Source: Acidithiobacillus caldus ATCC 51756 (lineage in GTDB: Bacteria > Pseudomonadota > Gammaproteobacteria > Acidithiobacillales > Acidithiobacillaceae). From it: 64,000 nucleotides of DNA. Both the position numbers and the translations under genes were made by a program. This document shows, piece after piece, positions 7,422 to 46,527 of the stretch. The notes under the pieces are model-generated. The model saw only the letters and a list, made by a program, of their open reading frames with translations, had not been told where the DNA came from and did not search any database. Position 1 is the stretch's first letter. Every line of letters begins with the position of its first letter. The stretch spans positions 255,549 through 319,548 of the forward strand of contig NZ_CP005986.1 of assembly GCF_000175575.2 (NCBI RefSeq), read 5' to 3'.

Positions 7422-7434
7422 TGACAAGTTGCGA

Positions 7435-7461: not shown

Positions 7462-7512
7462 TGGCAAGCGCTCAGCCGGCGCGTGCAAAGCGCAGCGGCC
7501 GATGGTACCTGC

Positions 7513-7899: not shown

Positions 7900-8045
7900 G
7901 AAGCCCTCCACTTGAGTATCGGTGCGAATGAGAACTCTCTACCTACATGATATATAAGCAGATAGTGTGATCCGACCGGGATCGGACCGAGTCACCATAA
8001 CCCACCGTCAGCGCCCGCTGCAAGGTCCCCATGCCCGGAGCGTGA

Positions 8046-9401: not shown

Positions 9402-10495
9402 GGGACGAGCACTCGCGGAACCCGGGCCTGGATACGGGTGCCCAGCTCATAGGGGATGGTGCCCAGCCGCTCGGCCAGGGACTCCAAAGGCTCGGCTCCA
9501 ACACCCATGAGGGTCACCCAGTCGCCTTCCTGGGCGTCGCTGTCTTGCAGGTCCACAAAGAGGAGATCCATGCTCACCCGCCCCAGGGTTTGGCTGCGTT
9601 GCGATCCAATCCACACCGGCGCTCCCTGCCCCAGGTGCCGATCAAAGCCATCGCCATAACCGCAGGCCACCACGCCCACCCGCTGTTCGTGGGGGGCTTG
9701 GTAAGCGGCGCCGTAGCCCAGCCATTCGCCCGGCGCGAGGCGACGGGTGGCGATGATCTGCGCCTGCCAGGAGAGCACCGGGCGAAGACCGAGGTCGCGA
9801 CCGGTCTGCCCCGGAAAAGGGGATAGTCCGTAGAGCATGAGGCCAGGACGCATCCACGGAAAGCGCGCTTCGCCCAGGGCGAGGACGGCTCCGGAGTTGG
9901 CCAGGGAGTGCTCGCCCAGGGTCCGCTCGCCCCATTGGCCGATGGCGGCGCGGAATTCACGAATTTGCCGGGTGTTGTGGGGGTCATTGGGGGTGTCGCT
10001 GCGGGCGAGATGGCTCATCAGGCCCAGGATGCGCAAAGGGCTTTGCACGGCGGCCAAGGCCTCGAACACCGGGCCCAGAGCGCTCGGGGCGAAGCCCAGG
10101 CGATGCATGCCCGAATCGAATTTGATCCAGATGGACAAGGGCCGATTCCAGCGTTGTTCTTGCAACCAGGCAAGCTGCGCGGCACGGTGGATGACCAGGA
10201 TATGGCCGCGGGCCGCGGCCAGGGGGATCTCTCCGGGCGCAAAGGGCCCGGCCAAAAGGCAGGCCGACGGCCCCAGGGCCAGGTCATAAAGCTGCTCGGC
10301 CTCCTCCATGCTGGCGACGGCAAAGCCCTCCACCCCGGCACGGGCAAGCTCCGGCGCACAGACCGCGAGGCCATGGCCATAGGCATTGGCTTTGACGGCC
10401 GCCATGAGCTTCGCCCCGGGCATCCGCGCCCGCGCCACAGCGACGTTGTGGGCCAAGGCGGAAGCGGAGATACAGGCGCGGACGGGGCGGGTCAT
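9398..10495 (-). CDS. alr: Alanine racemase
   Basis: A PLP enzyme that interconverts L- and D-alanine for peptidoglycan. The 365-residue protein has the PLP-lysine motif AVKANAYGHG (Lys35) and, in the C-terminal domain, the catalytic-tyrosine region LGYGAAYQAP. The fold is an N-terminal barrel plus a C-terminal beta domain, with normal length. The ATG start lies about 80 bases downstream of the outer-membrane-protein gene on the same strand. It shares a GTGA overlap with radA. Confidence 0.95.
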   Translation of the reverse strand: MTRPVRACISASALAHNVAVARARMPGAKLMAAVKANAYGHGLAVCAPELARAGVEGFAVASMEEAEQLYDLALGPSACLLAGPFAPGEIPLAAARGHILVIHRAAQLAWLQEQRWNRPLSIWIKFDSGMHRLGFAPSALGPVFEALAAVQSPLRILGLMSHLARSDTPNDPHNTRQIREFRAAIGQWGERTLGEHSLANSGAVLALGEARFPWMRPGLMLYGLSPFPGQTGRDLGLRPVLSWQAQIIATRRLAPGEWLGYGAAYQAPHEQRVGVVACGYGDGFDRHLGQGAPVWIGSQRSQTLGRVSMDLLFVDLQDSDAQEGDWVTLMGVGAEPLESLAERLGTIPYELGTRIQARVPRVLVP

Positions 10496-10573
10496 GTGGC
10501 CAGTTTAAGCCGACCACGGCGGAAAAGCACGGGAGACACCGCGCCGGGACTTGGCACGGTACCAACGACGGAG

Positions 10574-11458
10574 TTAAAAACGGTAGGCCAAACCCAATTC
10601 CATACCAAATAGGTTCGTGGAGGAGGGGGGTTCCCGGACCGTGCCGGGGATTTGCACTATGGGCGTTCCCTGATAATTGATGGTCTCGAGAGACGGATAC
10701 TCTTTGGTGCCGGTGTACGTGAAGTGGGTAAAATTCAGACCGCCGAAGATATGCCAGTTTCGGCTCAGAGCGTAGTCTGCACTGATTTTAATGCGTTCCT
10801 GGCCGCTAGTGCCAAACCCACCGCTGAAACCGGTGTCTGAGACGGTATATGGTCCACTGCTAGTCACCGTACCGGGGACGTCGATGCCACCACCAACGAC
10901 CGCCAAAAACTGGCCGTCTACCCCAACCACGAAACGTGGTGTCACCGCATATTGGAATAGAGCGCCGAGGCCGACGAGACCGGAGTGGTAATGTTCATCA
11001 TAGCCGCCAGGACCTTGCAGACGACGATCCCAATTCTGATAACCGCCAGCGACGTAGGGCGTCAGCATCGCGTTGGAGGAAAGGAAAAACCCCTTGCCCA
11101 GTCGGGCGATCACGCGATTTGTCGTGGCATTGTCCGTCGTGTTCAAGTGCTCTGCGGGTGTAGATCCATGGTAGGCAATGCCACCTGAGGAGTAGTAGTT
11201 TATTGCGAAGTAGAGGTTTTGAGTGAGTTTGTCGTTCATGCCACTCAGATGCACCGCAAAGCCAGGCATCCAACCGGACTCGATATCGGAGCCATAGGTG
11301 GGCGCTGGAGAGATGTGCTCCTGGTAGTTCATCAAGGTGCCGGTGGCTGCGATGCCGATCTCGTTATTGGCTGCCACAATGGGATTGTCCGATTGCGCCT
11401 GGGCCAGAGGGCTGAGACCCATGGCGGTGAGGGCCAAAGCAAGGATGCGAATCTTCAT
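10574..11458 (-). CDS. Outer-membrane beta-barrel protein
   Basis: A 294-residue exported protein of unknown function. A classic signal peptide (MKIRILALALTAMGLSPLAQA) is followed by alternating hydrophobic and polar strands rich in Gly, Tyr and Asn. It ends in LGLAYRF, and a C-terminal aromatic residue is the signal read by the Bam assembly machinery. The glycine-rich middle (GVDGQFLAVVGGG) may be a loop. The ATG at 11458 with GGAGAGAAG just before it is preferred over a more upstream start, which lacks a signal peptide. OmpW- or OmpA-like barrels are possible relatives, but I see no family-specific motif. Confidence 0.75.
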   Translation of the reverse strand: MKIRILALALTAMGLSPLAQAQSDNPIVAANNEIGIAATGTLMNYQEHISPAPTYGSDIESGWMPGFAVHLSGMNDKLTQNLYFAINYYSSGGIAYHGSTPAEHLNTTDNATTNRVIARLGKGFFLSSNAMLTPYVAGGYQNWDRRLQGPGGYDEHYHSGLVGLGALFQYAVTPRFVVGVDGQFLAVVGGGIDVPGTVTSSGPYTVSDTGFSGGFGTSGQERIKISADYALSRNWHIFGGLNFTHFTYTGTKEYPSLETINYQGTPIVQIPGTVREPPSSTNLFGMELGLAYRF

Positions 11459-11593
11459 GCTTCTCTCCATCAATGATTGGGGTGGTGGCTTCAGCATTTG
11501 CTGTAATGCTGTGCCTGCAGGTAAAAGTAGTACAAAGCCGTATTCTGTCAAGCCGAGACAATGGGGTGGGGTGCCGAGACGGTTGGACGAGGT

Positions 11594-11607
11594 GCGAGGT
11601 ACCTCGC
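11594..11607. repeat. 14-base perfect palindrome at the 3' end of dnaB
   Basis: GCGAGGTACCTCGC is fully self-complementary. Its last base is shared with the dnaB stop codon. As RNA it could form a 5-bp stem with a GUAC loop. There is no T run after it on the minus strand, so it is not a standard terminator; it might mark or protect the mRNA end. Confidence 0.6.
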
Positions 11608-12980
11608 TAAGCGTAATCCCCGGGGGGGGCGTAGTTCTCGAAGCGGGTGTACTCGCCGAAGAAACTCATGCGCACGGTGCCGATGGGGCCGTTACGTTGC
11701 TTGCCGATGATGACTTCGGCGATGCCTTTGACCTCTTCGTTGTCCTTGTTGTAGACCTCATCGCGGTAGAGGAAGAGGATGAGATCGGCGTCTTGCTCGA
11801 TGGCGCCGGACTCGCGCAGATCCGACATTTGCGGGCGCTTCTCGGTGCGGTTCTCGAGGCTGCGGTTGAGCTGGGAGAGGGCGATGACGGGTACCTGGAG
11901 CTCCTTGGCGAGCGCCTTCAGAGAGCGGCTGATTTCCGAGATTTCCGCCACCCGATTGTCGGAGCGTCCCGGCACCTGCATGAGCTGCAGATAGTCGACG
12001 ATGATGAGACGCAGATCTTGCTCGCGCTTGAGGCGGCGGGCGCGGGAGCGCAGTTCACCGGGTGTCAGGGCAGCGGAGTCGTCCGTGAACAGGGGAGCTT
12101 TACCGAGCTCGCCGATGGCCATGGCAATGCGGGGCCAGTCGTCGTTACCGAGGCTGCCGTTGCGCAGGCGGTGCTGATCCACCCGCCCACGCGAGGAAAG
12201 CGCCCGCAGCACGATCTCCTCCGTCGGCATTTCCATGCTGAATACCGCTACCGGCAGGCCCTCGGAGCAGGCCACGTGTTCGGCAATGTTCATGGCGAAG
12301 GCGGTCTTGCCCATACTGGGTCGCCCGGCCACTATGACCAACTGGCCGGGGTGCAGGCCAGAGGTTTTCTCGTCCAGATCGGCAAAGCCGGTGGGCAAAC
12401 CGGTGACGGTCTTGCGCTCGCGGGCGTTGGCCTCGATACGATCGATGACCCGGGGTAGCGCATCCTTGATGCGGGTGAAGGCTACCGCGTCCCGCTTCTG
12501 GCCCTGGGCCAGTTCAAATATCCGCCGCTCGGCCTCCTCCAGCAGGGTCTGGGCATCCCGTCCCTCGGGTCGGTAGGCCAGATCGGCAATTTCCCGCCCG
12601 GCATGGATGAGTGCGCGCAGGATGGCGCGATCGCGCACGATGCTGGCGTAGGCAGGCACGTTGGCCGCCGAAGGGGTGGCATTGGCCAATTCCACCACGT
12701 AGGCGACGCCGCCAGCCTCCGCCAGAAGCTCGTGATCCTGCAGGTACTCGGCCAAGGTGATGGCATCCAGGGGCTTCTGCTCCAGGAGCATCTGCCCGAT
12801 GCAACGATAGAGCACCTGGTGGCGTTTCTGATAGAAGTCCTCCGGGCTCAGCAGGTCGGCGATGCGATCCCAGCTTTCGGGATCGATGAGCAGGCCGCCG
12901 ATGACCGACTGCTCTGCCTCTAACGAATAGGGCAGGGCCTTGATGGCACCGCCATCCTGCAGGGCAAAGGGATAGTCCAT
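11607..12980 (-). CDS. dnaB: Replicative DNA helicase DnaB
   Basis: The hexameric helicase that unwinds DNA ahead of the replication fork. The 457-residue protein has the N-terminal primase-interacting domain (SLEAEQSVIGGLLID), a linker, then the RecA-like ATPase with Walker A GRPSMGKTAFAMN, DYLQLM, and the arginine-finger region ending in LYRDEVYN. No intein or insertion is seen. The ATG at 12980 is the start expected from the family; an open frame extends 43 codons upstream through rplI but is not DnaB-like. It is last in the rpsF-rpsR-DUF2232-rplI-dnaB run. Confidence 0.96.
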   Translation of the reverse strand: MDYPFALQDGGAIKALPYSLEAEQSVIGGLLIDPESWDRIADLLSPEDFYQKRHQVLYRCIGQMLLEQKPLDAITLAEYLQDHELLAEAGGVAYVVELANATPSAANVPAYASIVRDRAILRALIHAGREIADLAYRPEGRDAQTLLEEAERRIFELAQGQKRDAVAFTRIKDALPRVIDRIEANARERKTVTGLPTGFADLDEKTSGLHPGQLVIVAGRPSMGKTAFAMNIAEHVACSEGLPVAVFSMEMPTEEIVLRALSSRGRVDQHRLRNGSLGNDDWPRIAMAIGELGKAPLFTDDSAALTPGELRSRARRLKREQDLRLIIVDYLQLMQVPGRSDNRVAEISEISRSLKALAKELQVPVIALSQLNRSLENRTEKRPQMSDLRESGAIEQDADLILFLYRDEVYNKDNEEVKGIAEVIIGKQRNGPIGTVRMSFFGEYTRFENYAPPGDYA

Positions 12981-32743: not shown

Positions 32744-35700
32744 CTAGCTCCTGCCCACGGCGCTGTCCAGGGCGTCCAGCAGTTGGGGGTCCGCCGCGAG
32801 GTACAGGAGCCCGCCGCCGGCGGTGGCACAGGCGCGTAGATACCAGAGCCAGGCACCGCCAAGATGCTGCTCGGTTCGATACTGGCGCCCCAGGCGCTGA
32901 CGCAGGTGGCGATGTAGGGCCAGAAGATAGAGGGCCGCCTGCAGTTCGTAGCGGTGCTCGAGGACATCCTCGCGGATGGCCGTGTCGCCGTAGGCAGCAT
33001 CGTTTTCACCGAGACGCGTGGATTTGTAATCGAGGACGTAATAGCGGCCATCCACGGCAAAGACGAGATCCATGAAGCCGTGAAAGAGCCCGTGCAGGTT
33101 CTGTTTGCCAAGTATCGGGCGTTCGCGTCCCGGCAGCAGGTACTGGCGGCAGAGGGTGTCGAGCTGGTTCGTGGGCAGATGCTGGCTGGGAAACCAGAAG
33201 GGCATTTCCGTGCGCGCTCCGCGCAGCTCAGCGAATGTCGTCCCGAGGGACCCAAGGGGGCTGGCGCGCAGTACCGCAAACCAGTGGACGAGGACGGAGC
33301 CCCATGGCGCGTAACCGCGCTCATCGCAACGATGCAGGAAATCTTCACGCCAGTCTTCGGGCCAGCGGCCGTCACGCCACAGCCATTGGAGGAGTTCGTG
33401 AAGGAAGCGTCCCGCCCCGGGCCCTTGGGGAAAGGTGTGCCAGCCTTGCCCTGCCGCCTCCGCGCCCGGGTCTAGGCGATCTGGGGATGGATACGGGCCA
33501 ACGGAGGTTTGGAGGCTCTGGCTGAGGCGGCTGAAGCTGTGGATACTCCAGTCGCGTTCGAACCGAGCCGTGTACACCGGCGGTGTTCGCCTGGGCTCCG
33601 GGGGTTCGGCGAAGCGTGGTGCTGGGGCGCTGGGGATGGTGTCGGCGGCGAGCACCCGACAGGCGGGGTACCGTTTCCAGGTTTCCAGGCATTGGTCAGG
33701 GGTCTTGCCCTCGTCTGCGCCCAGCAGACGTCCCACGGCACTGCGCCACCAGAGTGGAGTGGAGGCGGTTTTGCCCGCCGCAAGGCCAAGCCAGAGGGCA
33801 TACTCGGCCCGGGTCAGGGCGACGTAGAGCAGACGCAGATCTTCCCGCAGGCGTTCCCGGTCCATGAGCTCTGCAGATGGACTTTGCCAGGATAGGGTCG
33901 AATGGTCGTCGTCGGTGACGACCTGCCAGGGTGGGACGTTCCCGTCTTTGCGGGTTGCGGCGATGAAGGGGAGGAAGACCAGGGGATACTGCAGGCCCTT
34001 GGCGGAGTGGATGGTGCGGATGCGGATACAGTGCGCGTCGCTTTCGAGGCGCAGGACGTGGCTATCGGCGGGGTTGTCCTCGCTGTCTTGCTCGCGCTGC
34101 AAATGCTCCAGGAGGGCCTCTCTCCCCTCCAGATGCTGACTGGCCTGTTGCAGCAATTCGCCGAGATGCAGCAGATTGCTGAGACGACGCTCACCGTCGG
34201 GACGCGCCAGAATGCGCGCGGCGGTGGCCTGCTGGTGCAGGCGCCGGTGCAGGGTGGTCAGGATACCCGAGTGCGCCCAGATCCTGGCGTGTTCACGCAG
34301 CCGTTCCACCTCTTGCGCCCAGAGTCCCTCGTCCGTATCGAGTCGCCACAGGTCGTGCTGGGCAAGACCCAGTAGCGGCAGGGCAAGGGCGCAGCGCAAG
34401 GCGGCTTCGTCTTCGGGGTGGAGCAGGGCGAACAGCCACAGACGGAGTTCTTCGGCTTCGGGACTATGGTAGACGGACTGCTTCTCGCTCAGGAAGGCTG
34501 CTGGCAGCCCGCGTCGGTGCAAGGCCGAGAGCATGATGGCGGCTTCCTTGCGATCGCGCAGGAGAATGGCGATGTCGCCGGCACCGACGCGTCGCAGTTT
34601 GCCATCGGCACCGACGAAACCGCTGGTGGAGTCCCCGAGCAACTGCGCGATGGTGGCTGCGGTCCACTCGGCGAAATGGGTCAGGAACTCCTCCTTGGTC
34701 AGGGCCAGAGGGTGCTGGGCAAAGGTGATGGCCGGGCCTTCCTGTCCGCCTAGCTGCCAGCGCTGGCTGCGGCCGGCAGCAGCTACGGCCTGATAGGGCA
34801 GGGGATCGTCGCCTTCGCCGCGGTAGTCGAAGGCTCCGCCGGGACAGCGCTCGTCCGCCCGCGCGTAGAGGGCATTGAGGGCCCCCACCAGAGGCTCGGC
34901 GGAGCGATAGTTGGTGCCCAGGACATAGTGCCGCGGGGCGGTATCGGCCCGCGCGCGCAGGTAACTGTCGAGGTCCGCCCCGCGAAAGCGGTAGATGGAT
35001 TGCTTGGGATCGCCGATGAGCAGCATGAGGCTGTCGGGCCACGGCTCACTGGGGCGATAGATGCGTTCGAAAATGGCGTACTGGCGGGCGGAGCTGTCCT
35101 GAAACTCATCGATGAGGATGACCGGGAAACGCTGGCGCAGCGCCTCTGCCAGCGCCTCGCCGCCGGGGCCGCGTAGCCCGTTCCAGAGTGCTCGGCTAAG
35201 GTCATTGAATTCCAGCTGGCGCAGGCGTTGCTTTTCCTCGCCGTAGAGCGCCGCCATGCTGGCTGCCGCCTGCGCCAGCGCCTGGCCATGCAATACCTCG
35301 TCGTCCACTTGCCATTGTTGGAGTGCGGCAAGGAAGGTATCGAATTGCGCCTGGGAAGGCGGTGCCGGGCAGTGCATGCCCTTTTTGACACATTCCGCCA
35401 AGGCGCTGCCCAGTTTGGCGACCGTGGCCATGGCCGTGGGAATGGAGGCGTCCTTCTCCACACACCATTGGTCGAGGCTCTGGAGTGCGCCTTGGAGTTT
35501 CTCCGGAGGGAGGCTTTTTCGATTCAGAGGGTAAGGATCACGGTCGGCAAGTTCCCGTAGCCACCGGCCATAGGTATCGCGGAGGGTACTGGACCACTGC
35601 GCCTTGAGCTCGGTGCCCGCCTTCAGCAGGGGCGCGGCTGCGTTCTCCAGCCAGTCGTGGAAGGCTGCTCTCGGTGCGGGCAGGGGCGGATCCAGCCAGG

Positions 35701-36301
35701 GCAGTCCCGCGACCTGTTCCAGCAGGGTTTCCGGATCCGGGGTACGCTGGAGCCACCAGGGTGCGGCACGCTGCAGCGGATAGATCTCGCGCCGCCAGAA
35801 ATCCTGCACCGCGCGGATGCGCAGGGGTGCGCTGTCCGTCAGGATCTCGGCTTCGGGATCGTGACCCGTAGCCAGGGCGTGCTCCCGCAGGACCCGGTGA
35901 CACCAGGCATCGATGGTGTGGATGCTGGCCTCGTCCACGCTGTTGAAGGCGTTTTCCAGACGGATAATGGCCGCCGCCCGCGTCGCCGGATCCGGGTAGT
36001 CACGCAGCAGCCTCTGCAGGAGCGCATCACTGGAGGCAGGCGGGGCGCCCTCGCGCAGGGCAGTAATGGTCTCATACAGACGCAGGGCGATGCGCTCCCG
36101 CAATTCCTCCGTGGCCGCCCGGGTAAAGGTCATCACCAAAATCTCACGGGGCTGGCGTGGCGGTGTCGCGGGCTCGCCGTGGCCGAGGAGCAGACGCAGG
36201 TAGAGGGTGGCGATGGTGTAGGTCTTGCCCGTGCCGGCGCTGGCCTCGATGAGGGCGCTCCCCTGCAGGGGCAGGCTGAGGGGATCGAGGACGCGGCTCA
36301 T
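32744..36301 (-). CDS. recB: Exodeoxyribonuclease V subunit RecB
   Basis: The 3'-5' helicase and nuclease subunit of RecBCD. The 1185-residue protein begins with GSALIEASAGTGKTYTIATL (Walker A), shows VILIDEFQDSSARQYAIF (helicase motif II) and IRTIHSAKGLQYPLVFLP (motif V/VI region). The C-terminal nuclease has MDLVFAVDGRYYVLDYKSTRLG with the catalytic Asp and Lys. The ATG at 36301 overlaps the recC stop as ATGA. It is close to the E. coli length of 1180. Confidence 0.95.
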   Translation of the reverse strand: MSRVLDPLSLPLQGSALIEASAGTGKTYTIATLYLRLLLGHGEPATPPRQPREILVMTFTRAATEELRERIALRLYETITALREGAPPASSDALLQRLLRDYPDPATRAAAIIRLENAFNSVDEASIHTIDAWCHRVLREHALATGHDPEAEILTDSAPLRIRAVQDFWRREIYPLQRAAPWWLQRTPDPETLLEQVAGLPWLDPPLPAPRAAFHDWLENAAAPLLKAGTELKAQWSSTLRDTYGRWLRELADRDPYPLNRKSLPPEKLQGALQSLDQWCVEKDASIPTAMATVAKLGSALAECVKKGMHCPAPPSQAQFDTFLAALQQWQVDDEVLHGQALAQAAASMAALYGEEKQRLRQLEFNDLSRALWNGLRGPGGEALAEALRQRFPVILIDEFQDSSARQYAIFERIYRPSEPWPDSLMLLIGDPKQSIYRFRGADLDSYLRARADTAPRHYVLGTNYRSAEPLVGALNALYARADERCPGGAFDYRGEGDDPLPYQAVAAAGRSQRWQLGGQEGPAITFAQHPLALTKEEFLTHFAEWTAATIAQLLGDSTSGFVGADGKLRRVGAGDIAILLRDRKEAAIMLSALHRRGLPAAFLSEKQSVYHSPEAEELRLWLFALLHPEDEAALRCALALPLLGLAQHDLWRLDTDEGLWAQEVERLREHARIWAHSGILTTLHRRLHQQATAARILARPDGERRLSNLLHLGELLQQASQHLEGREALLEHLQREQDSEDNPADSHVLRLESDAHCIRIRTIHSAKGLQYPLVFLPFIAATRKDGNVPPWQVVTDDDHSTLSWQSPSAELMDRERLREDLRLLYVALTRAEYALWLGLAAGKTASTPLWWRSAVGRLLGADEGKTPDQCLETWKRYPACRVLAADTIPSAPAPRFAEPPEPRRTPPVYTARFERDWSIHSFSRLSQSLQTSVGPYPSPDRLDPGAEAAGQGWHTFPQGPGAGRFLHELLQWLWRDGRWPEDWREDFLHRCDERGYAPWGSVLVHWFAVLRASPLGSLGTTFAELRGARTEMPFWFPSQHLPTNQLDTLCRQYLLPGRERPILGKQNLHGLFHGFMDLVFAVDGRYYVLDYKSTRLGENDAAYGDTAIREDVLEHRYELQAALYLLALHRHLRQRLGRQYRTEQHLGGAWLWYLRACATAGGGLLYLAADPQLLDALDSAVGRS

Positions 36302-39300
36302 TGCGCCGCCTCGCGGAGGCTGCTCACGCTGTCCACCGCCCGCTGCAGTAGCTGCGGGCCCGACAGTTCCAGCCCATCCGCCAGGGGCTGGACCGCTGCC
36401 AGCCACCGACGGTAGGGTTCGTAGATCCTGCGCGCCAGATCCAGAGCCGATAGTCCGGCGCTGCTGCGCCATTCCAGCACCGCCTCCGGGTTGGGAAAGT
36501 GGCGTTGCAGTAGCCAGTTCTCACGCCAGGCACCGGCTGCACCGCGGCCGTCACCAAGGATGTGGCGACGACTGCCGGCGCCGTCGCCACGATCGGCATC
36601 CGCCAATAGGGCGAGGGCCCAATCCAGACTGAGGGGATGTGGCTCGCGCAGGGCTTCTCCCAGCCATGCCAGGAGTTCCGCCAGGGATTCATCGGCTGCC
36701 ACTGGCGCCGGCGCACAGAGCCAGCCGTCCTGACCGAGGAAGAGGCCGAGCACCGCGCCCTCCCGTCGCTTGGTTTGCAGCACCGTGAGCTCCAGCCACC
36801 ACAGCAGCAGGCGATCTGCCCGGGCCTTGCCCCCATGCCACAACTTGCTGGTGTGGCGACGCAGGTGGATGCCCAGCGGATTGGCGTTCCAGGAGCGATC
36901 TTTGGGCAGCCTGGCTTGGAGGCGAAAGCCATCGCCCAGAAATTCGTCCTCCAGCACTTCGTGCTCGGGACCCAGTGCTTCGGCTACGGCCTGCCAGCTG
37001 CCCAAGAGGGATTCCATGAGGGTCAGCAGCCGCTGCTGCTGCAGTATTCCGGCGGCGGCCAGGGGTAGGTGCCCCCGTCGCGCCTCGGCCGCAAGACCCT
37101 CGCGCAGCTCCGCGGGGCTCGCCGCGCGCTCCCAGAGCTGCTGCAAGATCTGCCACTGTCCGAGTCCGTCCAGCCGGAAGGCTTCGTCGTCCGCTGCCAT
37201 CCTGTCGCGCCACGGCGACTCGACGCCTAGGCGCAGGGCGTAGAAGCTCGCCAGTGCGTCGGACAGGGCACCTTTCAGGTCCAACAAAGCGAGCTCCAGG
37301 CGGGCAGCGGGAGGCGAAAGGACAGCCACGCTTCGGTCCTCCACGGTGGACACGGGGAACCACTCGCGGGCAAAGCTCTCTGGGCCATCGGGCTCCAGAT
37401 AGCGGGGGCTGAAAGGCTGCAGGGGGTCCAGGTGCAAGCGCGTGCGCAGGGCGTCTTCGCCCCAGATGCCGACGATCTCGCGCTGCAGTTGCAGGATGAG
37501 GGCCGAGGGAGCGCGGTTTTCCTGATTGCGCGGATCGCGGCCGGTCCAGCTGAGGTAGAGACCATCCCGGGCAGAGAGCAATGCCTCCAGCATGAGATAG
37601 CGATCGTCCTCGCGGCGCGAGCGATCGCCGGGGCGGGCCATGTCGGGCAGGGTCATGAGATCGAAGTCGCGTCGCGGATCGGGACGCGGATAGTCCTCAT
37701 CGTTCATGCCCAGCAGACAGACCATGCGGAAGGGAATGGAGCGCATGGGCATCAGGGTGCAGAAGGTAACGCCGCCGCCCAGGAAGGCGCCATCCCCCGC
37801 GGACTCGAGGCCGTCGAGCCAGGCCTCGCGGAAGATCTCCAGAGGTAGAGGCCCGTCCCAGGCGGCCTTCTCGGTTTGCAGCAGCCAGTCCTCCAGGGCA
37901 CTTTCCAGTTGCTCGAGGGCCTCACGGTCCGCCGTATCGCTGGCCACAAAAAAATCGGCAAGGAGCTGGCGCGCCCGCTCCACCCAATGCTCCGGGGTCG
38001 TCGCCTCCTTCAGGCGTTGGCGCCAGGATTCCAGCCGCTCCCAGAGCACCCAGAGTTTGCCGAGGAGGGCGGCATCCAGGCTGCCCACCTCGGCGCAGGC
38101 CTCGATGCCGTCGAAGTGACTGTCGCTGCCGTTGGTGTAGCCCAGCAACAGACTCTGGAGCGCGAAGGCGCCGCTGGTGGGAGCGCCGCAGGCGGCAAAA
38201 CCCAGATCGGCTCGGTGCGCCGCCGACAGGCCCCAGCGCCAGCCTCCCTGTTCCAGCCAGGCATGGATTTGGGGCAGATCCTCCGGCGCAAGGCCAAAGC
38301 GTCGCTGCAGGGCGCTGCAGTCCAGGAGATCGCGGATCTCGCTCTGGGTGACGCGGCCTTGGGGCAGACCCAGCAGCCAGACCAGGGCGCGGATCAGGTT
38401 TGAGCGCTCCTGCGGGGTGAGGTCGACGATATGAAACGGAATATAGCGCGGGTCGTTCTTTCCATAGACGCCGAACACCGCCTGAACCAAAGGCGCATAG
38501 GAGGCTATGTCCGGCACCATGACCACGATGTCCCGTGGCCGCAGACCACGACCACGGCCAAGGCGCAGCAAGAGCTCATCCTGCAGTACTTGGAGCTCGC
38601 GCAGAGGGCCATAACTGCTGTGCAGGACCAGGGAGTCGTCGTTCTCGGCCAGGGTTCTGCCGGGCTCCCGGCTGTCTACGAGATCGCGGATACGGGTCTG
38701 CAGCTGCCGCAGCAGGGTGGTGCCGGTATCCTCGGTGAAGAAGTCCACCCGTTGCAGGCCCCAGAGCGGACCCATCTCCACGCTCTCGTCGAAACGATCC
38801 AGAAGGCGCATGAAATCGCGTCCCTGACGTCCCCAGGCTGCCAGAAGGCGTGGGCCGAAACCCGCTTCTGAGGTGCCGAGGACACGGCGCCGGCGCTGCC
38901 GACGCAGATCCTCATCGGCCCCGGCGACATCGCTCCAGTGATACGCGCTGGGATTGGGGATGGCCATGAGCACCTGCAGGTGCCTCCCAAGGGCAGCCAG
39001 GGCCTCCAGGCTCTGGGCTGGCAGGCTGACGGCACCGAAGAAGATGAGTCGGGGCGGCAGATCCAGAGAGCCAGGAGCGGCTTCCCGCAGGCGCTGCAGA
39101 AACGCCTCGTGGATCTCCCCGCGGCCAGCGAAGTGGCTGCCACCCTCCGTCACCTCGCGGCAGAGCCAATGCCAGAGCTGGGCCTGCCAGCGCTGGTCCT
39201 GCGGCAGATCACGCAGGACGCCGCGTCCGTCGCGCAGGGTCCAGCGGCCTGCGGCCCAATCCTTCAGCCAGTCGGCACGATAGACCTGATACTGATCCAG

Positions 39301-39738
39301 GAGATCTGCCAGAAGGCCCGCCAGGCGCCAGCGCCGCTCCAGGGCGGAGGAATCCGTGGTGGCCAGATAACGCAACAGTGGTACGCCGCCGGGGTCCGCT
39401 TCGTGCGCGAGTCTCGGCAAGAGCCGCAGCAGGCGCCAGCGCAGCGCCGCCTTGCTCCAGACGGTGTCGTCGGGCACGCCACGGGGTCCCAGCACCCGAC
39501 GGTAACTTTCCCACAAGAAGCGGGCGGGCAGGCTGACCCGGATCCCGGCACAGATCCCATCGCCCTCGGCCAGCTGCCATTGCAGCCATTCGCCCACGGC
39601 ATTGCTCTGCACGAGAAAGGTGTCCTCCACCAGGGGCGGCAGCGGATTGGCCCCGAGCCACTGACGTATGGCCGTGAGCAGATCCTCCAGGCGATCGCCG
39701 TGCAGTACCACGACGCCGGGCCGGGGAAGCCCACTCAC
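36298..39738 (-). CDS. recC: Exodeoxyribonuclease V subunit RecC
   Basis: The Chi-recognition subunit of RecBCD, an inactive helicase-nuclease relative. The 1146-residue protein shows RecC hallmarks: QSNAVGEWLQWQLAEGDGIC near residue 45, PFHIVDLTPQERSNLI, and CLLGMNDEDYPRPDPRRDFDLM. The GTG at 39738 overlaps the BufC-like gene's stop (GTGA); a longer open frame continues upstream but only through other genes. The length fits E. coli RecC (1122). It is followed by recB with an ATGA overlap. Confidence 0.93.
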   Translation of the reverse strand: MSGLPRPGVVVLHGDRLEDLLTAIRQWLGANPLPPLVEDTFLVQSNAVGEWLQWQLAEGDGICAGIRVSLPARFLWESYRRVLGPRGVPDDTVWSKAALRWRLLRLLPRLAHEADPGGVPLLRYLATTDSSALERRWRLAGLLADLLDQYQVYRADWLKDWAAGRWTLRDGRGVLRDLPQDQRWQAQLWHWLCREVTEGGSHFAGRGEIHEAFLQRLREAAPGSLDLPPRLIFFGAVSLPAQSLEALAALGRHLQVLMAIPNPSAYHWSDVAGADEDLRRQRRRRVLGTSEAGFGPRLLAAWGRQGRDFMRLLDRFDESVEMGPLWGLQRVDFFTEDTGTTLLRQLQTRIRDLVDSREPGRTLAENDDSLVLHSSYGPLRELQVLQDELLLRLGRGRGLRPRDIVVMVPDIASYAPLVQAVFGVYGKNDPRYIPFHIVDLTPQERSNLIRALVWLLGLPQGRVTQSEIRDLLDCSALQRRFGLAPEDLPQIHAWLEQGGWRWGLSAAHRADLGFAACGAPTSGAFALQSLLLGYTNGSDSHFDGIEACAEVGSLDAALLGKLWVLWERLESWRQRLKEATTPEHWVERARQLLADFFVASDTADREALEQLESALEDWLLQTEKAAWDGPLPLEIFREAWLDGLESAGDGAFLGGGVTFCTLMPMRSIPFRMVCLLGMNDEDYPRPDPRRDFDLMTLPDMARPGDRSRREDDRYLMLEALLSARDGLYLSWTGRDPRNQENRAPSALILQLQREIVGIWGEDALRTRLHLDPLQPFSPRYLEPDGPESFAREWFPVSTVEDRSVAVLSPPAARLELALLDLKGALSDALASFYALRLGVESPWRDRMAADDEAFRLDGLGQWQILQQLWERAASPAELREGLAAEARRGHLPLAAAGILQQQRLLTLMESLLGSWQAVAEALGPEHEVLEDEFLGDGFRLQARLPKDRSWNANPLGIHLRRHTSKLWHGGKARADRLLLWWLELTVLQTKRREGAVLGLFLGQDGWLCAPAPVAADESLAELLAWLGEALREPHPLSLDWALALLADADRGDGAGSRRHILGDGRGAAGAWRENWLLQRHFPNPEAVLEWRSSAGLSALDLARRIYEPYRRWLAAVQPLADGLELSGPQLLQRAVDSVSSLREAAQ

Positions 39739-40472
39739 CGGCTTTCGTCCTCGCGGAAACCGAGGAGAGCCTCCGCATCCACCAGGCTCCTGAAGAGATT
39801 GGCGATACGCGCGCGCAGACCGTCGTCCAGGGGACTGTCGGGAAAAGCCCGGGCCACGGCCGCCGCCACCGTGCCCGCTCCCTCGCTGAGAGCGCTGAGC
39901 AGGCGCGCCTCGGCCAGATCGAGTTCCCGGTGACGAACGAAGCCTTCGCCGTCGCGGTAACGCAAAACATAGACGGTTTCCGCCACCGGCGGGCCCGTGC
40001 GTTCCTCGACACGATGCACGGCGTAGGCATAGGCGCGCAGGCTGTGTGTGGGATTGAGCAGTGGCCGGTCTTGCCAGGACCGGAAAACTCTCCGGGCAGG
40101 AGGCGTCGGGACCGAGGGGGCCAGGGATAGGGCCAGCTCTTCCCATTCCCAATGGGCGAGGGCCGCAAGCCACGGCGGCTGTCTTCCCTCTCGAGCAAGG
40201 AGATGGCGCAGAAAGGCTTCGGGACATTCGTGGAAGGCGGGGCTTGGGAGAGAACCCTCAGCGAGGAAGTCGTGCACGAGCACCGGCCAGTCAGAACCGA
40301 GGAGCCTTTTGCACTGCGGATAACAGGCGGCAAGCCCTGCCTCGAGATTGCTGAGTAGAAGTTCGCGATACAGCGTGAAGGTAGCGCCGGTCATGCCCGC
40401 CGCCGCAGCCATCTGTGCGTCACCGCGGCGCAGAGCCATGGCCAGGCGATGCAGTGGTGCGCCGGCGCTCAT
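39735..40472 (-). CDS. bufC: BufC/HvfC-type DUF2063 protein of a MNIO RiPP system
   Basis: A 245-residue protein with the DUF2063 fold in its N-terminal half (TLYRELLLSNLEAGLAACYPQCKRLLG, then HECPEAFLRHLLA). In MNIO systems BufC/HvfC recruits the precursor peptide to the BufB/HvfB enzyme; this is family knowledge. The C-terminal half carries LRYRDGEGFVRHRELDLAEARLL, the usual second domain. The ATG overlaps the bufB stop (ATGA), and its own stop overlaps the recC GTG start (GTGA). Confidence 0.85.
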   Translation of the reverse strand: MSAGAPLHRLAMALRRGDAQMAAAAGMTGATFTLYRELLLSNLEAGLAACYPQCKRLLGSDWPVLVHDFLAEGSLPSPAFHECPEAFLRHLLAREGRQPPWLAALAHWEWEELALSLAPSVPTPPARRVFRSWQDRPLLNPTHSLRAYAYAVHRVEERTGPPVAETVYVLRYRDGEGFVRHRELDLAEARLLSALSEGAGTVAAAVARAFPDSPLDDGLRARIANLFRSLVDAEALLGFREDESR

Positions 40473-41302
40473 GCCGCGGCGACAGTAGCGGTAGCCGCGA
40501 GTTGGCCGAGTTCCTCCAGCAGCAGATCCAGTCTCGGGATGGCGTGGTCCCACTCCAGGAGGATCGGACGTGGACCGAGATACGCCAAAGCCTCCCGCAG
40601 TAACTGCAACACCGGCGCCGAAACCCCGCGGTCGTGGGTGTCGATGAGCTGACCGCTGGGATGTGCAGCGTGTCCTGCCAAGTGCAGATAGACCACCCGC
40701 TCTGCCGGTAGTGCCCGCAAGAAGCTCAGGGCGTCGTAGCCGTGATTGCGGCTGTTGACGTAGAGGTTGTTGATATCCAGGAGAATCCGACAGTCGCTCT
40801 CGTGTACCAGCTGGCAGAAAAACTCCGTCTCGCTCAGCGTGCTATTCGCAAAATCTCCGTAGTATGCGGTGTTTTCCAGCAGCAACGGGCGCTCCAGAAT
40901 GTCCTGCACTTGCACGATACGGTCGCGGCAGTGGCGGAGGGTGTCCTCATTGAAGGGGATGGGGAGCAGGTCGTGGAGGTAGGAACCATCGCGGCAGAAG
41001 GCCAGATGTTCACTATAGTGTGGACAACCGTGTTCCTCCAGAAACCGCGCCACGTCGTCCAACAAGGCGCGATCCAAGGGATCCGGGCCACCAATGGATA
41101 GCGACAGCCCGTGTGCCAGGAGCGGCACACGCTCGCTCAGCTGACGGAGGGTATGCGCAGGGCGCCCACCGAAGCGGAACCAGTTCTCCGGAGAGGTCTC
41201 CAGGAAGTCCACGGGCAGAGGGTCGCGTGCCGCGAGCTCCGCCAGAAAACTGCGGCGCAGGCCAAGGCCCAGGGCAGAGCCGGACGGTGGCAGCGCAGCC
41301 AT
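40469..41302 (-). CDS. bufB: BufB/HvfB-type DUF692 (MNIO) enzyme
   Basis: A multinuclear non-heme iron-dependent oxidase of 277 residues with a TIM-barrel fold. Such enzymes turn precursor cysteines into thiooxazoles or related groups in copper-binding RiPPs. Metal-ligand regions are visible: LAHGLSLSIGG, YSEHLAFC, LLENTAYYG, LDINNLYVNSRNHG, YLHLAGH, DTHDRG and LEWDH. The ATG is six bases after the precursor gene's stop. Its end overlaps bufC. Substrate and product are inferred from family and context only. Confidence 0.9.
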   Translation of the reverse strand: MAALPPSGSALGLGLRRSFLAELAARDPLPVDFLETSPENWFRFGGRPAHTLRQLSERVPLLAHGLSLSIGGPDPLDRALLDDVARFLEEHGCPHYSEHLAFCRDGSYLHDLLPIPFNEDTLRHCRDRIVQVQDILERPLLLENTAYYGDFANSTLSETEFFCQLVHESDCRILLDINNLYVNSRNHGYDALSFLRALPAERVVYLHLAGHAAHPSGQLIDTHDRGVSAPVLQLLREALAYLGPRPILLEWDHAIPRLDLLLEELGQLAATATVAAA

Positions 41303-41308
41303 CGCGCC

Positions 41309-41614
41309 TCAGTTGTCCTCGGGCATGGCCATGTTGTGCGTGTCCATGTAGTGCTTGCCGCAATTGCCGCCGTGTGCCTTGATGGCCGCAGCGCTGACAC
41401 AATGTCCCTCCGGCGCCATGGAGCGGGAGCAGCCGCCCTCACCCATTTTCGTGCTCATGGACCGAGAGCAGCCGCCTTCCGTCATGTTCTTGCTGCTCTG
41501 CATGGTGGTGGACGCCGCCGGCGCAGGCATGGCTGCGAGACTGGCTGCCGGCAGAGCCCCGAGGCTCAGGGCGAAGAGGGAAGCCAAAGGTAGGGAGCGT
41601 TTAGGATCGTGCAC
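41309..41614 (-). CDS. Secreted Cys-repeat peptide, likely MNIO RiPP precursor
   Basis: A 101-residue preprotein with a signal peptide (SLPLASLFALSLGALPAASLA) and a mature part with four cysteines at 49, 62, 72 and 85. The first two lie in identical EGGCSRSM units, the third in EGHC, the fourth in GGNC. Repeated EG-x-C motifs resemble the EGKCG repeats of HvfA-type precursors modified by MNIO enzymes, though the flanking residues differ; it is not a close match to DUF2282-type BufA. The GTG start has AGGAGG seven bases upstream. It lies six bases before bufB. Confidence 0.72.
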   Translation of the reverse strand: MHDPKRSLPLASLFALSLGALPAASLAAMPAPAASTTMQSSKNMTEGGCSRSMSTKMGEGGCSRSMAPEGHCVSAAAIKAHGGNCGKHYMDTHNMAMPEDN

Positions 41615-41666: not shown

Positions 41667-42017
41667 TCAGGCCTTGCCCGAGGGGCCACGACTGCCGAAA
41701 TAGCCGACACCCAAGAGTATGGCCGCCATCACCAGCTCCTGAATGGCGGGTATGAGCCAACCCCGCGGCCAGGCATTGAACCAGACCATGGCCAGGGTGA
41801 TGACCCCAAGCAGCACCATGAAGCCGCCGAGCTTGCCCAGGGCACGGAAGACATTGGCGGCGGTGAGTACGCCGATGCCCCGATGCAGGCCGAGGCCCCG
41901 CAGGCGGCGATCGAGAAACTGCGGCGCGACGAGGTAAGTGAAGGCGACGGCCAGAAAGAGCAGAACCGCGACGGCGATGATGACGCCAAGGATATCCAGC
42001 ACGTTGGATGCGGGCAT
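41667..42017 (-). CDS. Small integral membrane protein of unknown function
   Basis: A 116-residue protein with three hydrophobic helices: LDILGVIIAVAVLLFLAVAFTYLV near the N terminus, LGGFMVLLGVITLAMVWFN in the middle, and LIPAIQELVMAAILLGVGYFG near the end. No catalytic motif is seen, and it does not look like DoxX, the usual membrane partner of RiPP cassettes. GGAGG lies eight bases before the ATG. It follows glrR by 52 bases and precedes the RiPP precursor gene by 52 bases on the same strand. It could belong to either unit. Confidence 0.7.
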   Translation of the reverse strand: MPASNVLDILGVIIAVAVLLFLAVAFTYLVAPQFLDRRLRGLGLHRGIGVLTAANVFRALGKLGGFMVLLGVITLAMVWFNAWPRGWLIPAIQELVMAAILLGVGYFGSRGPSGKA

Positions 42018-42069: not shown

Positions 42070-43425
42070 TCAGTCCGAATCTTCTTCCTTGAAGGCTGCC
42101 GGATCCAGGTGGTAGCGCCGCAGCAGGCGGTAGAATTCGGTGCGGTTGCGTTGCGCCAGCTGTGCCGCCTGGCTCACATTGCCACGGGTCATGCGCATGA
42201 TCTGGATGAGGTAATTCATCTCGAAACGACCCTTGGCATCGGCCAGGGGAAGCACCTCTCCCTCGCGGTCGCGCAGGGCGTGGCGGATGAGGGGTGCACC
42301 GATACGGGGTGTGGTGGACAGGACCACGGCCTGCTCGATGACGTTGGCCAACTGGCGGACGTTACCGGGCCAGGGAGCAGCCACCAGGAGTTCCATGGCC
42401 TCGGGAGCAATGCCGCGCACGTCCTTACGGTTCTTGCTGGCGGTGTCGCGGAGAAAGAACTCCGCCAGCAGGGGGATATCTTCGGGCCGTTCCGCCAGGG
42501 ACGGCAACTCCAGCGTAACCACGCACAGACGATAGTAGAGGTCGTCGCGAAAGCGCCGTTCCGCCATTTCCTTTTCGAGATCGCGGTGACTTGCCGAGAT
42601 TACCCGAACGTCCACCGGAATACTCTCCGTGGCTCCCACGGGTCGTACCACGCGCTCCTGCAGTGCCCGCAAGAGCTTGACCTGCAGCGCCAGAGGCATG
42701 TCGCCGATTTCGTCCAGAAACAGGGTCCCGCCATCGGCGGCCTGAAAGAGGCCCACGTGATTGCTGGCCGCCCCGGTGAAGGCCCCCTTCTTGTGGCCGA
42801 AGAGTTCCGACTCCAGCAGTTGCTCGGGAAAGGCGCCGCAATTGACGGCGACGAAGGGCTTGTTGCGGCGCGGGCTAGACTGGTGAATGGCCTGGGCCAG
42901 GAGTTCCTTACCCGTGCCGCTGGCACCGTGAATGAAGACGCTGGCGTCCGATGCCGCCACCAGTCGCGCCTGATCCAGCACCGCCTGCATGCGCGGGCTG
43001 CGGGTGAGGATACGCTCGAAACCCAGGTCCGAGGTCTTGCGGCTGCCGGTACTGGCCGCCGTGAGATTGAAGGCGCGTTCCACCTGAGCCATCAGATCCT
43101 TGCCGTCGAAGGGCTTGGTCAGAAAGGCGAAAACCCCCTGATCGGCGGCGACGAGGGCATCGGGGATGGAGCCGTGCGCCGTCAGGATGATCACCGGCAG
43201 GGTGGGATAATCGCGGCGGATGGCATCCAGCAGGGCCATGCCGTCCATCTCGTCCATCTTGAGGTCGGTGATGACCAGGCCCGGATGTTCCATGGCCAGC
43301 ACCGACAGGGCCTCGCTGCCATTGGCGGCAGTGAGGATGGCGTAGCCTGCACTTTTCATGCGCAAAGACAGCAGCCGCAGCAGATCGGCATCGTCATCTA
43401 CGAGAAGGATCTTTCCCTTGTCCAT
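42070..43425 (-). CDS. glrR: Sigma-54-dependent response regulator GlrR (QseF)
   Basis: The 451-residue regulator has a receiver domain (phospho-acceptor Asp54 in [13 protein letters not shown], Lys in FLTKPFDG), an AAA+ sigma-54-activating domain with [15 protein letters not shown] and GAFTGA, and a C-terminal DNA-binding helix-turn-helix ([24 protein letters not shown]). It is downstream of a matching sensor kinase and a YfhG-type lipoprotein, the GlrK-YfhG-GlrR set that in enterobacteria responds to envelope stress. Gene spacing from yfhG is six bases. Confidence 0.9.
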
Positions 43426-43431
43426 GCGTTT

Positions 43432-43866
43432 TCAGTTTCCCTGGGGTACGCGGGCGTTTTTTTCGATCTGGACCAGCTCATTCAGCTTCTTGCGCAGCTC
43501 ACCCTCACGCTGCAGCGCCTGGCTCAATCGGTTTTGCAGGTCGTTCACCTTGGCCTCCAGTTTCTGATAGCCGGGGTCGCCGGCGCGCGCGGCGGCCAGC
43601 TGGCGCGCCAGATTGCTGGCCTCGCTCTGGGCCGATCGGCAGTCGGCGGTGGGCGCTGGCGCCTTCTCCAGCTCCGCCACCTTGGCTTCGAGGGCGGCGA
43701 GACGACTGGCGGACACGACCACTTCTCCGGGAGCGAGGACCACGCTAGGGGGCTTGGGTTTCTCGCTCGGCAGGTTTGCGCAGCCGCTGAGACTGGTCAG
43801 TGCCAGCATCAGGACGAGACTCGGGCGCCATCGGCAAACGACACCGGAAATGCGCACCGGGACCAT
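43432..43866 (-). CDS. YfhG/QseG-like lipoprotein
   Basis: A 144-residue lipoprotein: hydrophobic signal (PSLVLMLALTSLSGC with lipobox LSGC) followed by SEKPKPP and a long coiled-coil region (ARAGDPGYQKLEAKVNDLQNRLSQALQREGELRKKLNELV). QseG/YfhG proteins are outer-membrane lipoproteins that modulate the partner kinase. The start is uncertain: ATG at 43866 (taken) or GTG at 43857; both lie inside the end of glrK, giving an overlap of over 110 bases, unusually long. Confidence 0.65.
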   Translation of the reverse strand: MVPVRISGVVCRWRPSLVLMLALTSLSGCANLPSEKPKPPSVVLAPGEVVVSASRLAALEAKVAELEKAPAPTADCRSAQSEASNLARQLAAARAGDPGYQKLEAKVNDLQNRLSQALQREGELRKKLNELVQIEKNARVPQGN

Positions 43867-45244
43867 CGGAATCGACAATTTCAAGACTTCCCCCGTAGCT
43901 CGTAACGTATTCTCTGGCAATGGCAAGCCCCAGGCCACTGCCTTCCACTTTCCCCTGACCGCTGGCACTGCCGCGGTAGAGGATATCAAAGATCTTTTCG
44001 CGCTCCTCGGGCGTCACCCCGGGGCCAGCGTCCATGACGTCGAGGACGGCATCCCCGTCCACGGGCTGCAGCCGCAGGCGTATGGTAGTCCCTTGGGGCG
44101 AGAACTTCACCGCATTGGACAAGAGATTGTCGCAGATGGTGCGCAGCCGATCGCGATGACCGGCGACCAGAAGCGGGGCAAGTTCCATGTCCAGCCGCAG
44201 GTTCTTGCTGCGCAGCACCGGTTTGTAGCTCTGCGTGAGCTCTTCCAGGAGCGCGTCCAGACGCACATCCTGCTGCATCCCGGCCGCCACCGGCCCTTCG
44301 GCGATGCTGAAGCGCAGGAGATCCTCGATCAGGCGTTGCAGGCGCAGGCTATTGTCGCGGACGATGTGGACGATCTCGCGCTGCTCGGGATCCAGTTCAT
44401 GACCCAGGTCCTCTTGCAGGAGCTCGGCGCCTTCGCGAATTGCCGTGAGGGGCGTCTTCAGCTCGTGGGAAAGCTGCCGCAGAAAGTGGATCTTGGCCGC
44501 CTCCAGCTCGCCCAGGCGCTGCCGCAGCCACTCCAGGCGGTCGCCCAGGCTGGCGATGTCTCGCGGGCCGTTGACGCGGATGGGGCTGTCCAGATCGCCC
44601 GCGCCAAGGCCAGTTATGGCGTGGTCCAGGCGACGGATGGGGCGGGTGATGAGGACGATGAAAAAGAGGGCCACGGCAATGGACAGTGGCAGCACCAGGA
44701 GTACTTCGAGGATGGTCAGGCGTTTGATGGCCAAGGCCCGGGTGCCGAGTTTGGCCACTTCGGAACTGATGCCGTCGTTGACGTCGCTCTGCAGGCGCTG
44801 CACCTCGCCGTTGGCGCGGCTGAATTCGCTTTCCAGGGCACTGCGGTTGCCCTCCAGGGCGGCGACGGGGAGCAGGCGGCGCGCCTGGCGCAGATGGGCG
44901 TCGAGGCGGTTCAGGCGAGCGAGATCGGTCTTGGTGGGAGCGGCCTTGCGAAAGCGAGCGCTGACATCCCGATATTCCTCATAGCTCTGCTGAAAGAGCA
45001 CGAGCAGGGCGGAATCCTGCAGCACCGTGTACTGCAGCCCGTAGCGCTCCATGGAGCGCACGGCGCTGCTCATGCGGTTGGCCGAGTCGCTGAGGGCCAC
45101 TGCCCGCAGAATGCCCGCCTGTCCCTCCTCGGCAAAGTGGGCAATGGCAATGGTCACGCTAACGATGACCAGCACCAGCGGAATGATGGCAAGGCCAAAG
45201 CCCACTACCACCAGGCGGGAGATGGAATTGGGACGCAGGTTCAT
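43745..45244 (-). CDS. glrK: Sensor histidine kinase GlrK (QseE)
   Basis: The 499-residue membrane kinase has an N-terminal helix (LVVVGFGLAIIPLVLVIVSVTIAIAHF), a periplasmic helical domain, a second membrane helix (LLVLPLSIAVALFFIVLI), a HAMP segment, the H-box FLRQLSHELKTPLTAIREG and ATP-binding motifs SNAVKFSPQG, DAGPG and GSGLGLAIAR. Its partner regulator is GlrR. The ATG overlaps the pyrC-like stop (ATGA), linking it to the pyrimidine genes. Confidence 0.9.
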   Translation of the reverse strand: MNLRPNSISRLVVVGFGLAIIPLVLVIVSVTIAIAHFAEEGQAGILRAVALSDSANRMSSAVRSMERYGLQYTVLQDSALLVLFQQSYEEYRDVSARFRKAAPTKTDLARLNRLDAHLRQARRLLPVAALEGNRSALESEFSRANGEVQRLQSDVNDGISSEVAKLGTRALAIKRLTILEVLLVLPLSIAVALFFIVLITRPIRRLDHAITGLGAGDLDSPIRVNGPRDIASLGDRLEWLRQRLGELEAAKIHFLRQLSHELKTPLTAIREGAELLQEDLGHELDPEQREIVHIVRDNSLRLQRLIEDLLRFSIAEGPVAAGMQQDVRLDALLEELTQSYKPVLRSKNLRLDMELAPLLVAGHRDRLRTICDNLLSNAVKFSPQGTTIRLRLQPVDGDAVLDVMDAGPGVTPEEREKIFDILYRGSASGQGKVEGSGLGLAIAREYVTSYGGSLEIVDSDGPGAHFRCRLPMAPESRPDAGTDQSQRLRKPAERETQAP

Positions 45245-46527
45245 GGCTCCCGGCGATGGACGATGCGCCCATCCCGCAGGGTCAGCCGTACGGCCCCGCG
45301 CAGCTCCCACTGGCGGTAGGGATGGTTGTCTCCCGCGCTCCAGCCTTTTGCCGGTGCCTCCCAGGCGTATTCCGGATCAAAGACGCAGAGATCCGCAGAC
45401 GCTCCCGGGGCCAGGCTGGGCGGCGGCAGACCCAGGGCCGTAGCCGGCCCCGTGGTGAGGCGCTGCACCAGTTGCAGCAGAGAGAGCACGCCTGCCCGTA
45501 CCAGATTCAGGGATAGGGGCAGCAGGTACTCGATGGCGGCGATGCCAAAGGGGGCTGCCGCCATGGTGGCGTTCCCGTGATCCGGCCCGCGTGGCTCGTG
45601 CTGCGCCGACAGCACCGACAGGGTGCCGCGCGCCAGTGCCCGACGCAACCCCTCCTGCTGGCGGGCGTCCCGCAGCGGTGGCAGGATCTTGGCGTGGGTA
45701 TTGAAGTTACCGATATCCTGGCTCGTGAGGAGCAGGTGGTGGATGCTCACCCCGGCCGTAACCGCCTGTCCCGCCGCCTGCGCCGCGGCAAGCTGGGCGA
45801 CGGCCGTGGCACTGCTCAGGGTGGGAAAGTGCACCCGTGCGCCGACGAGTCGCGCGATCTCGAGATCGCGATACAGACCGATGTCCTCGGCGGCACGGGC
45901 CCGCCCGGTAAGTCCGAGACGTAGGCTCAACGGGCCCTCATCCACCACACCATCCGCCGCCAGACGCGAGTCTTCCGGGTGCAGCAGAACGGTACGGTCA
46001 AAGTCGGCGGCGTAGGCAAGGGCCAGGCGCAGGATCTGGGCGTCTTCGACACTGCGCTGGGCCTGACCGAAGGCGACGGCACCCGCCTCCAGCAAGGCGG
46101 ACATCTCGCAGAGCCCACGACCATCGAGCTTGGGTGTCAGCGCTGCGCAGGGCATGACGCGGATGAGGCCGACGGCTTCTGCCTGGGCCAGTTGTTCCCG
46201 AATCACCCCGGGCGTATCGGCGACGGGCTGGGTATCGGGGCGCAGGAGTACGCGGGTGAAGCCGCCCGCCGCCGCGGCCCGCAGCTCCGAACCGAGGTCG
46301 CCGTCGCGCCCGGAGCCTGGGGTATGCCCCTGGAAGCTCGTCTCGATGAAGCCGGGACAAAGGCAGCAGCCGTGGGCATCGACGACCTCCGTCGCTGAGA
46401 AGTCGCGGGGAATATCGCCCACGGCCAGAATCCGGCCCTTGGCGATGGCAAGGTCGGCAACGCCGTCAAAACCCGTGCTCGGGTCCAGCAGACGTGCGCC
46501 GCGAATGAGGCGGGCTTCAGTCTTCAT
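45241..46527 (-). CDS. Dihydroorotase homologue, probably catalytically inactive (PyrC'-like)
   Basis: A 428-residue amidohydrolase of the dihydroorotase family. The expected HxH metal motif after the first strand is absent (GFIETSFQGHTPG instead of a DLHVHLREPG-type sequence), and the catalytic Asp region reads SAQHEPR instead of ATDHAPH. Other family features remain (LLHPEDSRL, VSIHHLLLT). In Pseudomonas, an inactive PyrC' forms part of the aspartate transcarbamoylase complex; the position right after pyrB fits that role. The ATG at 46527 overlaps the pyrB stop by 11 bases. Confidence 0.85.
   Translation of the reverse strand: MKTEARLIRGARLLDPSTGFDGVADLAIAKGRILAVGDIPRDFSATEVVDAHGCCLCPGFIETSFQGHTPGSGRDGDLGSELRAAAAGGFTRVLLRPDTQPVADTPGVIREQLAQAEAVGLIRVMPCAALTPKLDGRGLCEMSALLEAGAVAFGQAQRSVEDAQILRLALAYAADFDRTVLLHPEDSRLAADGVVDEGPLSLRLGLTGRARAAEDIGLYRDLEIARLVGARVHFPTLSSATAVAQLAAAQAAGQAVTAGVSIHHLLLTSQDIGNFNTHAKILPPLRDARQQEGLRRALARGTLSVLSAQHEPRGPDHGNATMAAAPFGIAAIEYLLPLSLNLVRAGVLSLLQLVQRLTTGPATALGLPPPSLAPGASADLCVFDPEYAWEAPAKGWSAGDNHPYRQWELRGAVRLTLRDGRIVHRREP

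Follow-up and report, generated by a model that had tools for sequence, protein, structure and literature searches.

A Cys-repeat peptide encoded beside an MNIO enzyme gene in Acidithiobacillus caldus: a probable divergent relative of the EGKCG precursors

The window analysed here, a 64,000-nucleotide stretch of the Acidithiobacillus caldus ATCC 51756 genome, carries on its minus strand a short gene for a Cys-containing repeat peptide, followed by genes for an MNIO, an iron enzyme, and a DUF2063 partner protein. The features of the locus are as follows.

39735..40472, minus strand: partner protein with DUF2063 and NGO1945_C domains (HvfC/PME1-like); its start overlaps the MNIO stop (ATGA)
40469..41302, minus strand: MNIO enzyme (HvfB/FonB-like), 277 aa, with E250-W251-D252-H253 at the substrate-contact site and R16-R17 kept
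41309..41614, minus strand: precursor peptide gene, 101 aa, with a GTG start, a Sec-type signal-like N-terminus and four Cys
41345..41410, minus strand: C-terminal unit of the precursor, EGHCVSAAAIKAHGGNCGKHYM, residues 69-90
41417..41440, minus strand: second EGGCSRSM unit, residues 59-66
41456..41479, minus strand: first EGGCSRSM unit, residues 46-53
41667..42017, minus strand: three-helix membrane protein, 116 aa, without known family, directly upstream of the precursor

Translation of the minus strand from 41614 to 41309 gives V(M)HDPKRSLPLASLFALSLGALPAASLAAMPAPAASTTMQSSKNMTEGGCSRSMSTKMGEGGCSRSMAPEGHCVSAAAIKAHGGNCGKHYMDTHNMAMPEDN, a protein of 101 residues in which EGGCSRSM occurs twice, EGHC once and GGNC once. 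This is the peptide that a first-pass annotation had described from the letters of the DNA; the strand, which it left unstated, is minus. The six-base distance it gave to the MNIO gene also holds, GGCGCG being the gap between the precursor stop and the MNIO ATG (41302). An AGGAGG site lies 7 bases 5' of the GTG start. The exact 8-residue duplication, the longest internal repeat in the peptide, exceeds chance: when the same residues were shuffled, the maximum was 6, reached once in 5,000. The two EGGCSRSM units differ at three bases, all of them synonymous. Compared with its counterpart in Acidithiobacillus sp. KMB_Bin03, the closest species compared, the precursor is 80% identical (dN 0.13, dS 0.87), with dN/dS of about 0.15 for the precursor and about 0.11 for the MNIO. 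We conclude that the precursor ORF is a real, conserved gene. The peptide had also been called secreted; the signal-like N-terminus agrees with this, and export itself is predicted. A Pfam match to the GW182 'M domain' (E=0.24) was put down to chance, as was a Fab match, the sole match returned by a search of solved structures.

That an MNIO gene adjoins the precursor is confirmed by a match to Pfam MbnB_TglH_ChrH (E=1.6e-96), and the DUF2063 partner gene can be added to it. In the NCBIfam models, the enzyme scores 316 bits against HvfB (cut-off 360) and 270 against BufB (cut-off 310), while the best model for the partner is HvfC (137.9 bits, cut-off 142). The BufB and BufC names given earlier should therefore be replaced by HvfB/FonB-like and HvfC-like, a change with which the tree described below agrees for the enzyme. 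The precursor matches the HvfA model NF050188 weakly, at 21.3 bits for a cut-off of 95. That HvfA, HvfB and HvfC all stay under their cut-offs counts against placing this system with the captophorins, the class that holds oxazolin and fontiphorin; the NF050188 model, for its part, is narrow, since its cut-off was reached in a single genome out of 398 from the phylum. Aligned with 3bww, the MNIO has H64, H99, E143, D176, N179, H207, D221, H223, E250 and D252 in place; these are taken, by analogy, as the conserved metal ligands and catalytic Asp of the captophorin class.

No copper gene or DoxX gene lies beside the operon, and a search of the whole genome returned no DoxX match; this speaks against the captophorin reading, and the locus differs here from HvfA/oxazolin clusters, where DoxX is frequent, not universal. 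The genome holds two DUF2063 genes and no DUF2282, and the precursor itself has no Pfam match. Several Acidithiobacillus species have a homologue of the 116-aa membrane protein close to the precursor; this protein is under strong constraint (dN/dS 0.08). Further upstream, at 42070-45310 and in the window's genus only, are genes for a GlrR-like sigma-54 response regulator, a small coiled-coil protein and a histidine kinase; Igneacidithiobacillus has a PAS-type sigma-54 activator in this place. A scan of the window, prompted by the GlrR-like regulator, found no sigma-54 promoter before the precursor. RecB and RecC genes (32744-39741) are located closely 3' of the operon, likewise in several Acidithiobacillus species.

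Homologues were sought across the host's family, order, class and phylum. This yielded 18 full-length Acidithiobacillia MNIOs of the clade, 17 of which have an EGxC-type precursor just upstream; in the exception, A. ferrianus, the precursor is away from the MNIO. A scan of the whole collection with the family alignment, which relied on one C-terminal pattern and which relatives lacking that pattern would escape, found 15 loci, 14 in Acidithiobacillus or Igneacidithiobacillus and one in a 'Proteobacteria bacterium' MAG, whose contig is identical to that of G013, a family member known from the genome search. Judged by these searches, the precursor family appears confined to Acidithiobacillia in the genomes covered. 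Plasmid records contained no relatives.

Within the family the repeat unit is EG[NG]CS[RQK]xM, present in 0-4 copies, of which EGGCSRSM is the form of the window's genus. E, G, C and S are each invariant (29/29 units), and Met occupies the fourth position after Cys in 26 of the 29. The most conserved part, however, is not the repeat but the C-terminal C-x12-CGK unit, with consensus C[VT]Sxxx-I-K/R-xH-x-G-x-CGKxxM and with C72, S74, H81, G83, C85, G86, K87 and M90 invariant. The earlier emphasis on EGGCSRSM as a distinctive repeat type thus stands in so far as the unit differs from EGKCG, but the unit is broader than that one form and the CVSxxxIKAHxGxCGK region is better conserved. The di-Cys unit is kept even in copies without any EGxCS repeat. 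Such MNIO-distant copies, with 0-1 EGxCS repeats and an intact C-terminal unit, occur in A. ferrianus, A. ferriphilus and others (L098, L103, L055, L059), one of them (L103) near a DsbG-like gene.

The mature part of the precursor is rich in Met and His, residues that bind metals without modification. This fact, together with the MNIO-distant copies in some species, would suit a periplasmic metal binder rich in Cys, Met and His that acts unmodified while the adjacent MNIO serves another substrate. We regard this as very unlikely, because the order precursor–MNIO–partner is kept tightly in almost all species, because no other convincing Cys-rich candidate was found beside the MNIOs of the Acidithiobacillia clade, and because precursor and enzyme pocket change together, as described below.

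Several comparisons bear on the ancestry of the system. In a maximum-likelihood tree of 54 MNIOs, the Acidithiobacillia enzymes stand beside those associated with EGKCG precursors (support for the EGxCS group, 63/95), and a 100/100 branch splits the DUF2282-associated enzymes from both. Searches with the family profile reach EGKCG precursors elsewhere in the class, in other families, at E-values between 1e-7 and 7e-4. When compared by hhalign, the family matched EGKCG precursors at 95.8%, the match lying in the signal/leader region, and DUF2282 precursors at 0.45%. From the enzyme tree, the profile searches and the leader match, we infer that the precursor is related to the EGKCG class and that its branch is the HvfA/fontiphorin (EGKCG, captophorin) side, away from bufferin-1. 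The C-terminal 'IKAHxxxC' looks like the bufferin-1 core 'AKAHxxxC', but the profile comparison gave this likeness no support.

What the locus has in common with HvfA/oxazolin is a secreted-type repeat peptide encoded ahead of HvfB-type MNIO and HvfC-type partner genes, E-G before Cys and a related leader. The differences are as follows: EG[NG]CS[RQK]xM takes the place of EGKCG, with Ser, Val or Thr after Cys, there is an extra C-terminal unit, and the enzyme has EWDN/H, not ERDF. The leader element NPF..L..GY, found by a strict pattern in 13 of 28 EGKCG precursors, occurs in 0 of 15 from Acidithiobacillia. Leader homology, the sister position of the enzyme and the retention of E and G before Cys in all repeats might suggest an ordinary EGKCG/oxazolin precursor whose repeats have drifted, with the same function. 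This explanation appears highly improbable to us, given that the changes hold without exception in several genera, in every repeat unit and in all 18 enzymes, and that the HvfA score is so far below the cut-off. The repeated EGKCG motif itself is absent, the units being EGGCS in the window and EG[NG]CS across the family.

With fontiphorin (FonABC) and the captophorin class (PMC12668002) the locus shares an MNIO–PME1 (DUF2063) pair, a Cys-repeat precursor and the Arg pair at the enzyme entrance. The 5-mers screened in the main text of that paper (EGKCG, DGKCG, AKCGA, GKCGT, NVCGG, LVHCY, QCEKA, HNDCK and NACKG) include neither EGNCS nor EGGCS. The repeat therefore lies outside both EGKCG and these 5-mers, in keeping with the 'new type' claimed initially, but as a relative of the EGKCG class it is better called a variant; the earlier interpretation is right in kind and off in detail. 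Literature searches turned up no paper that takes Acidithiobacillus together with MNIO, DUF692 or bufferin as its subject, although the supplementary datasets of PMC12668002 and PMC12452194 may include the sequence without comment.

The position after Cys separates the two groups of precursors. EGKCG precursors have Gly there in 202 of 204 cases, including sites with a different residue before Cys; in the Acidithiobacillia family the count is Ser 29, Gly 15, Val 9 and Thr 6 (n=59), with Ser in all 29 repeat units. The enzymes differ in parallel, the pocket motif being ERDF in 29/29 of the nearest MNIOs outside Acidithiobacillia and EWDN (16) or EWDH (2, the window's genus) in the 18 within. 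In the published FonB model, Phe250, which adjoins the catalytic Asp249, makes contact with positions 3 and 5 of the substrate; within its own motif, FonBC tolerated no residue other than Gly or Ala after Cys (PMC12668002), unlike the Ser of the Acidithiobacillia unit. An EGNCG precursor is paired with an ERDF enzyme (L119), which indicates that the pocket does not follow the residue before Cys; the residue after Cys is the better candidate. Modification motif and enzyme pocket thus appear to have changed together. This covariation runs between clades and so amounts to few independent events, and we treat it as a lead on specificity, not as proof. Sister clades that differ jointly in two residues of the enzyme and one of the substrate offer a natural test of what determines substrate specificity in thiooxazole-forming MNIOs.

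Other MNIO systems also depart from ERDF. The bufferin-1 enzymes (DUF2282, BufB1/BufC1) mostly have EWD[N/S/A/T/V], several thus sharing an EWDN-type pocket with the Acidithiobacillia, and in both cases Cys is not followed by Gly; unlike here, however, the bufferin-1 precursor is a DUF2282 protein, its profile is unrelated and its enzyme is on a distant branch. Bufferin-2/Cys-Lys precursors likewise have several Cys and an MNIO–PME1 system, but carry Lys after Cys, and the pocket of their enzymes is mostly RDD (RDD 8, RDA 2, RDG 1); Cys-Lys enzymes are reported to have Asp at the site of FonB Phe250 (PMC12668002).

The altered pocket raises the possibility that the same enzyme pair makes another product, either because Ser after Cys leads to a different oxidised heterocycle or because only some Cys, for example those of the C-terminal CGK unit, are modified and the rest form a disulfide as in bufferin-1. 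The pocket is unlike that of every EGKCG enzyme sampled, the four Cys stand in differing contexts (GC-S, GC-S, HC-V and NC-G), the invariant part of the peptide is the di-Cys unit that persists without EGxCS repeats, and bufferin-1 is modified at the central Cys only (PMC12452194). On the other hand, EWDN is shared by enzymes associated with DUF2282, and that family is reported to form thiooxazoles where a residue other than Gly follows Cys. We consider such a product unlikely, though clearly a more serious contender than the unmodified binder.

We therefore favour, with reasonable confidence, the view that the peptide is the precursor of an MNIO-made product of captophorin kind in a divergent Acidithiobacillia form, for which thiooxazole chemistry, export, copper binding and metal protection are predicted. 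The MNIO–DUF2063 pairs studied so far turn Cys into 5-thiooxazoles, and as a rule the products bind Cu (PMC12668002; PMC12538549; PMC12452194). Since such pairs do so, and since the expected ligands and catalytic Asp are present, thiooxazoles and Cu(I) chelation would be expected here. In the cytoplasm, the MNIO and its DUF2063 partner would bind the leader of the precursor, a step that we leave as a proposal because the NPF..L..GY element is missing. The Cys of the EG[NG]CS units would then be converted to 5-thiooxazoles, with loss of 4 H per Cys, and those of the C-terminal C-x12-CGK unit probably likewise; modification at sites followed by Ser, Val or Thr would rely on the changed pocket, given the narrow preference of FonBC. 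The peptide would next be exported by the Sec route and would chelate a soft metal at low pH through its thiooxazole sulfurs, possibly joined by the Met four residues after each repeat Cys; Cu(I) is the most likely metal.

Met makes up 11.8% of the core in the family as compared with 2.0% in EGKCG precursors. Acid weakens thiol and imidazole ligands, and extreme acidophiles are used in metal leaching. Met enrichment may supply acid-stable ligands, which is conjecture on our part. A more specific and distinctly tentative proposal is that this is a co-evolved, lineage-specific captophorin, in which Gly after Cys gave way to Ser, Val or Thr, ERDF to EWDN/H, and Met was added at the fourth position after each repeat Cys, to give a mixed thiooxazole–thioether copper site working in the periplasm near pH 2-3. 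The findings suggest that the extreme acidophiles of metal leaching produce a class of modified metal-binding peptides of their own.

The same genome has a second MNIO cluster, outside the window (5477-12778 of locus L151; about 1,760,476-1,767,777 of C1). Its precursor, which has a lipobox-like LASC and two GGMMRHGCSG repeats, is accompanied by a BufB-like MNIO and a DUF2063 partner; the surrounding genes are DsbD, three of DsbG/thioredoxin-like type and an Lnt gene. Another genus (G021, G022) shares about 8.7 kb of this region at 99.3% identity, so the cluster has moved recently. Elsewhere (L169, in G124), a 431-residue ORF with 14 Cys lies upstream of an MNIO with an EWDG pocket and may represent a protein-sized MNIO substrate.
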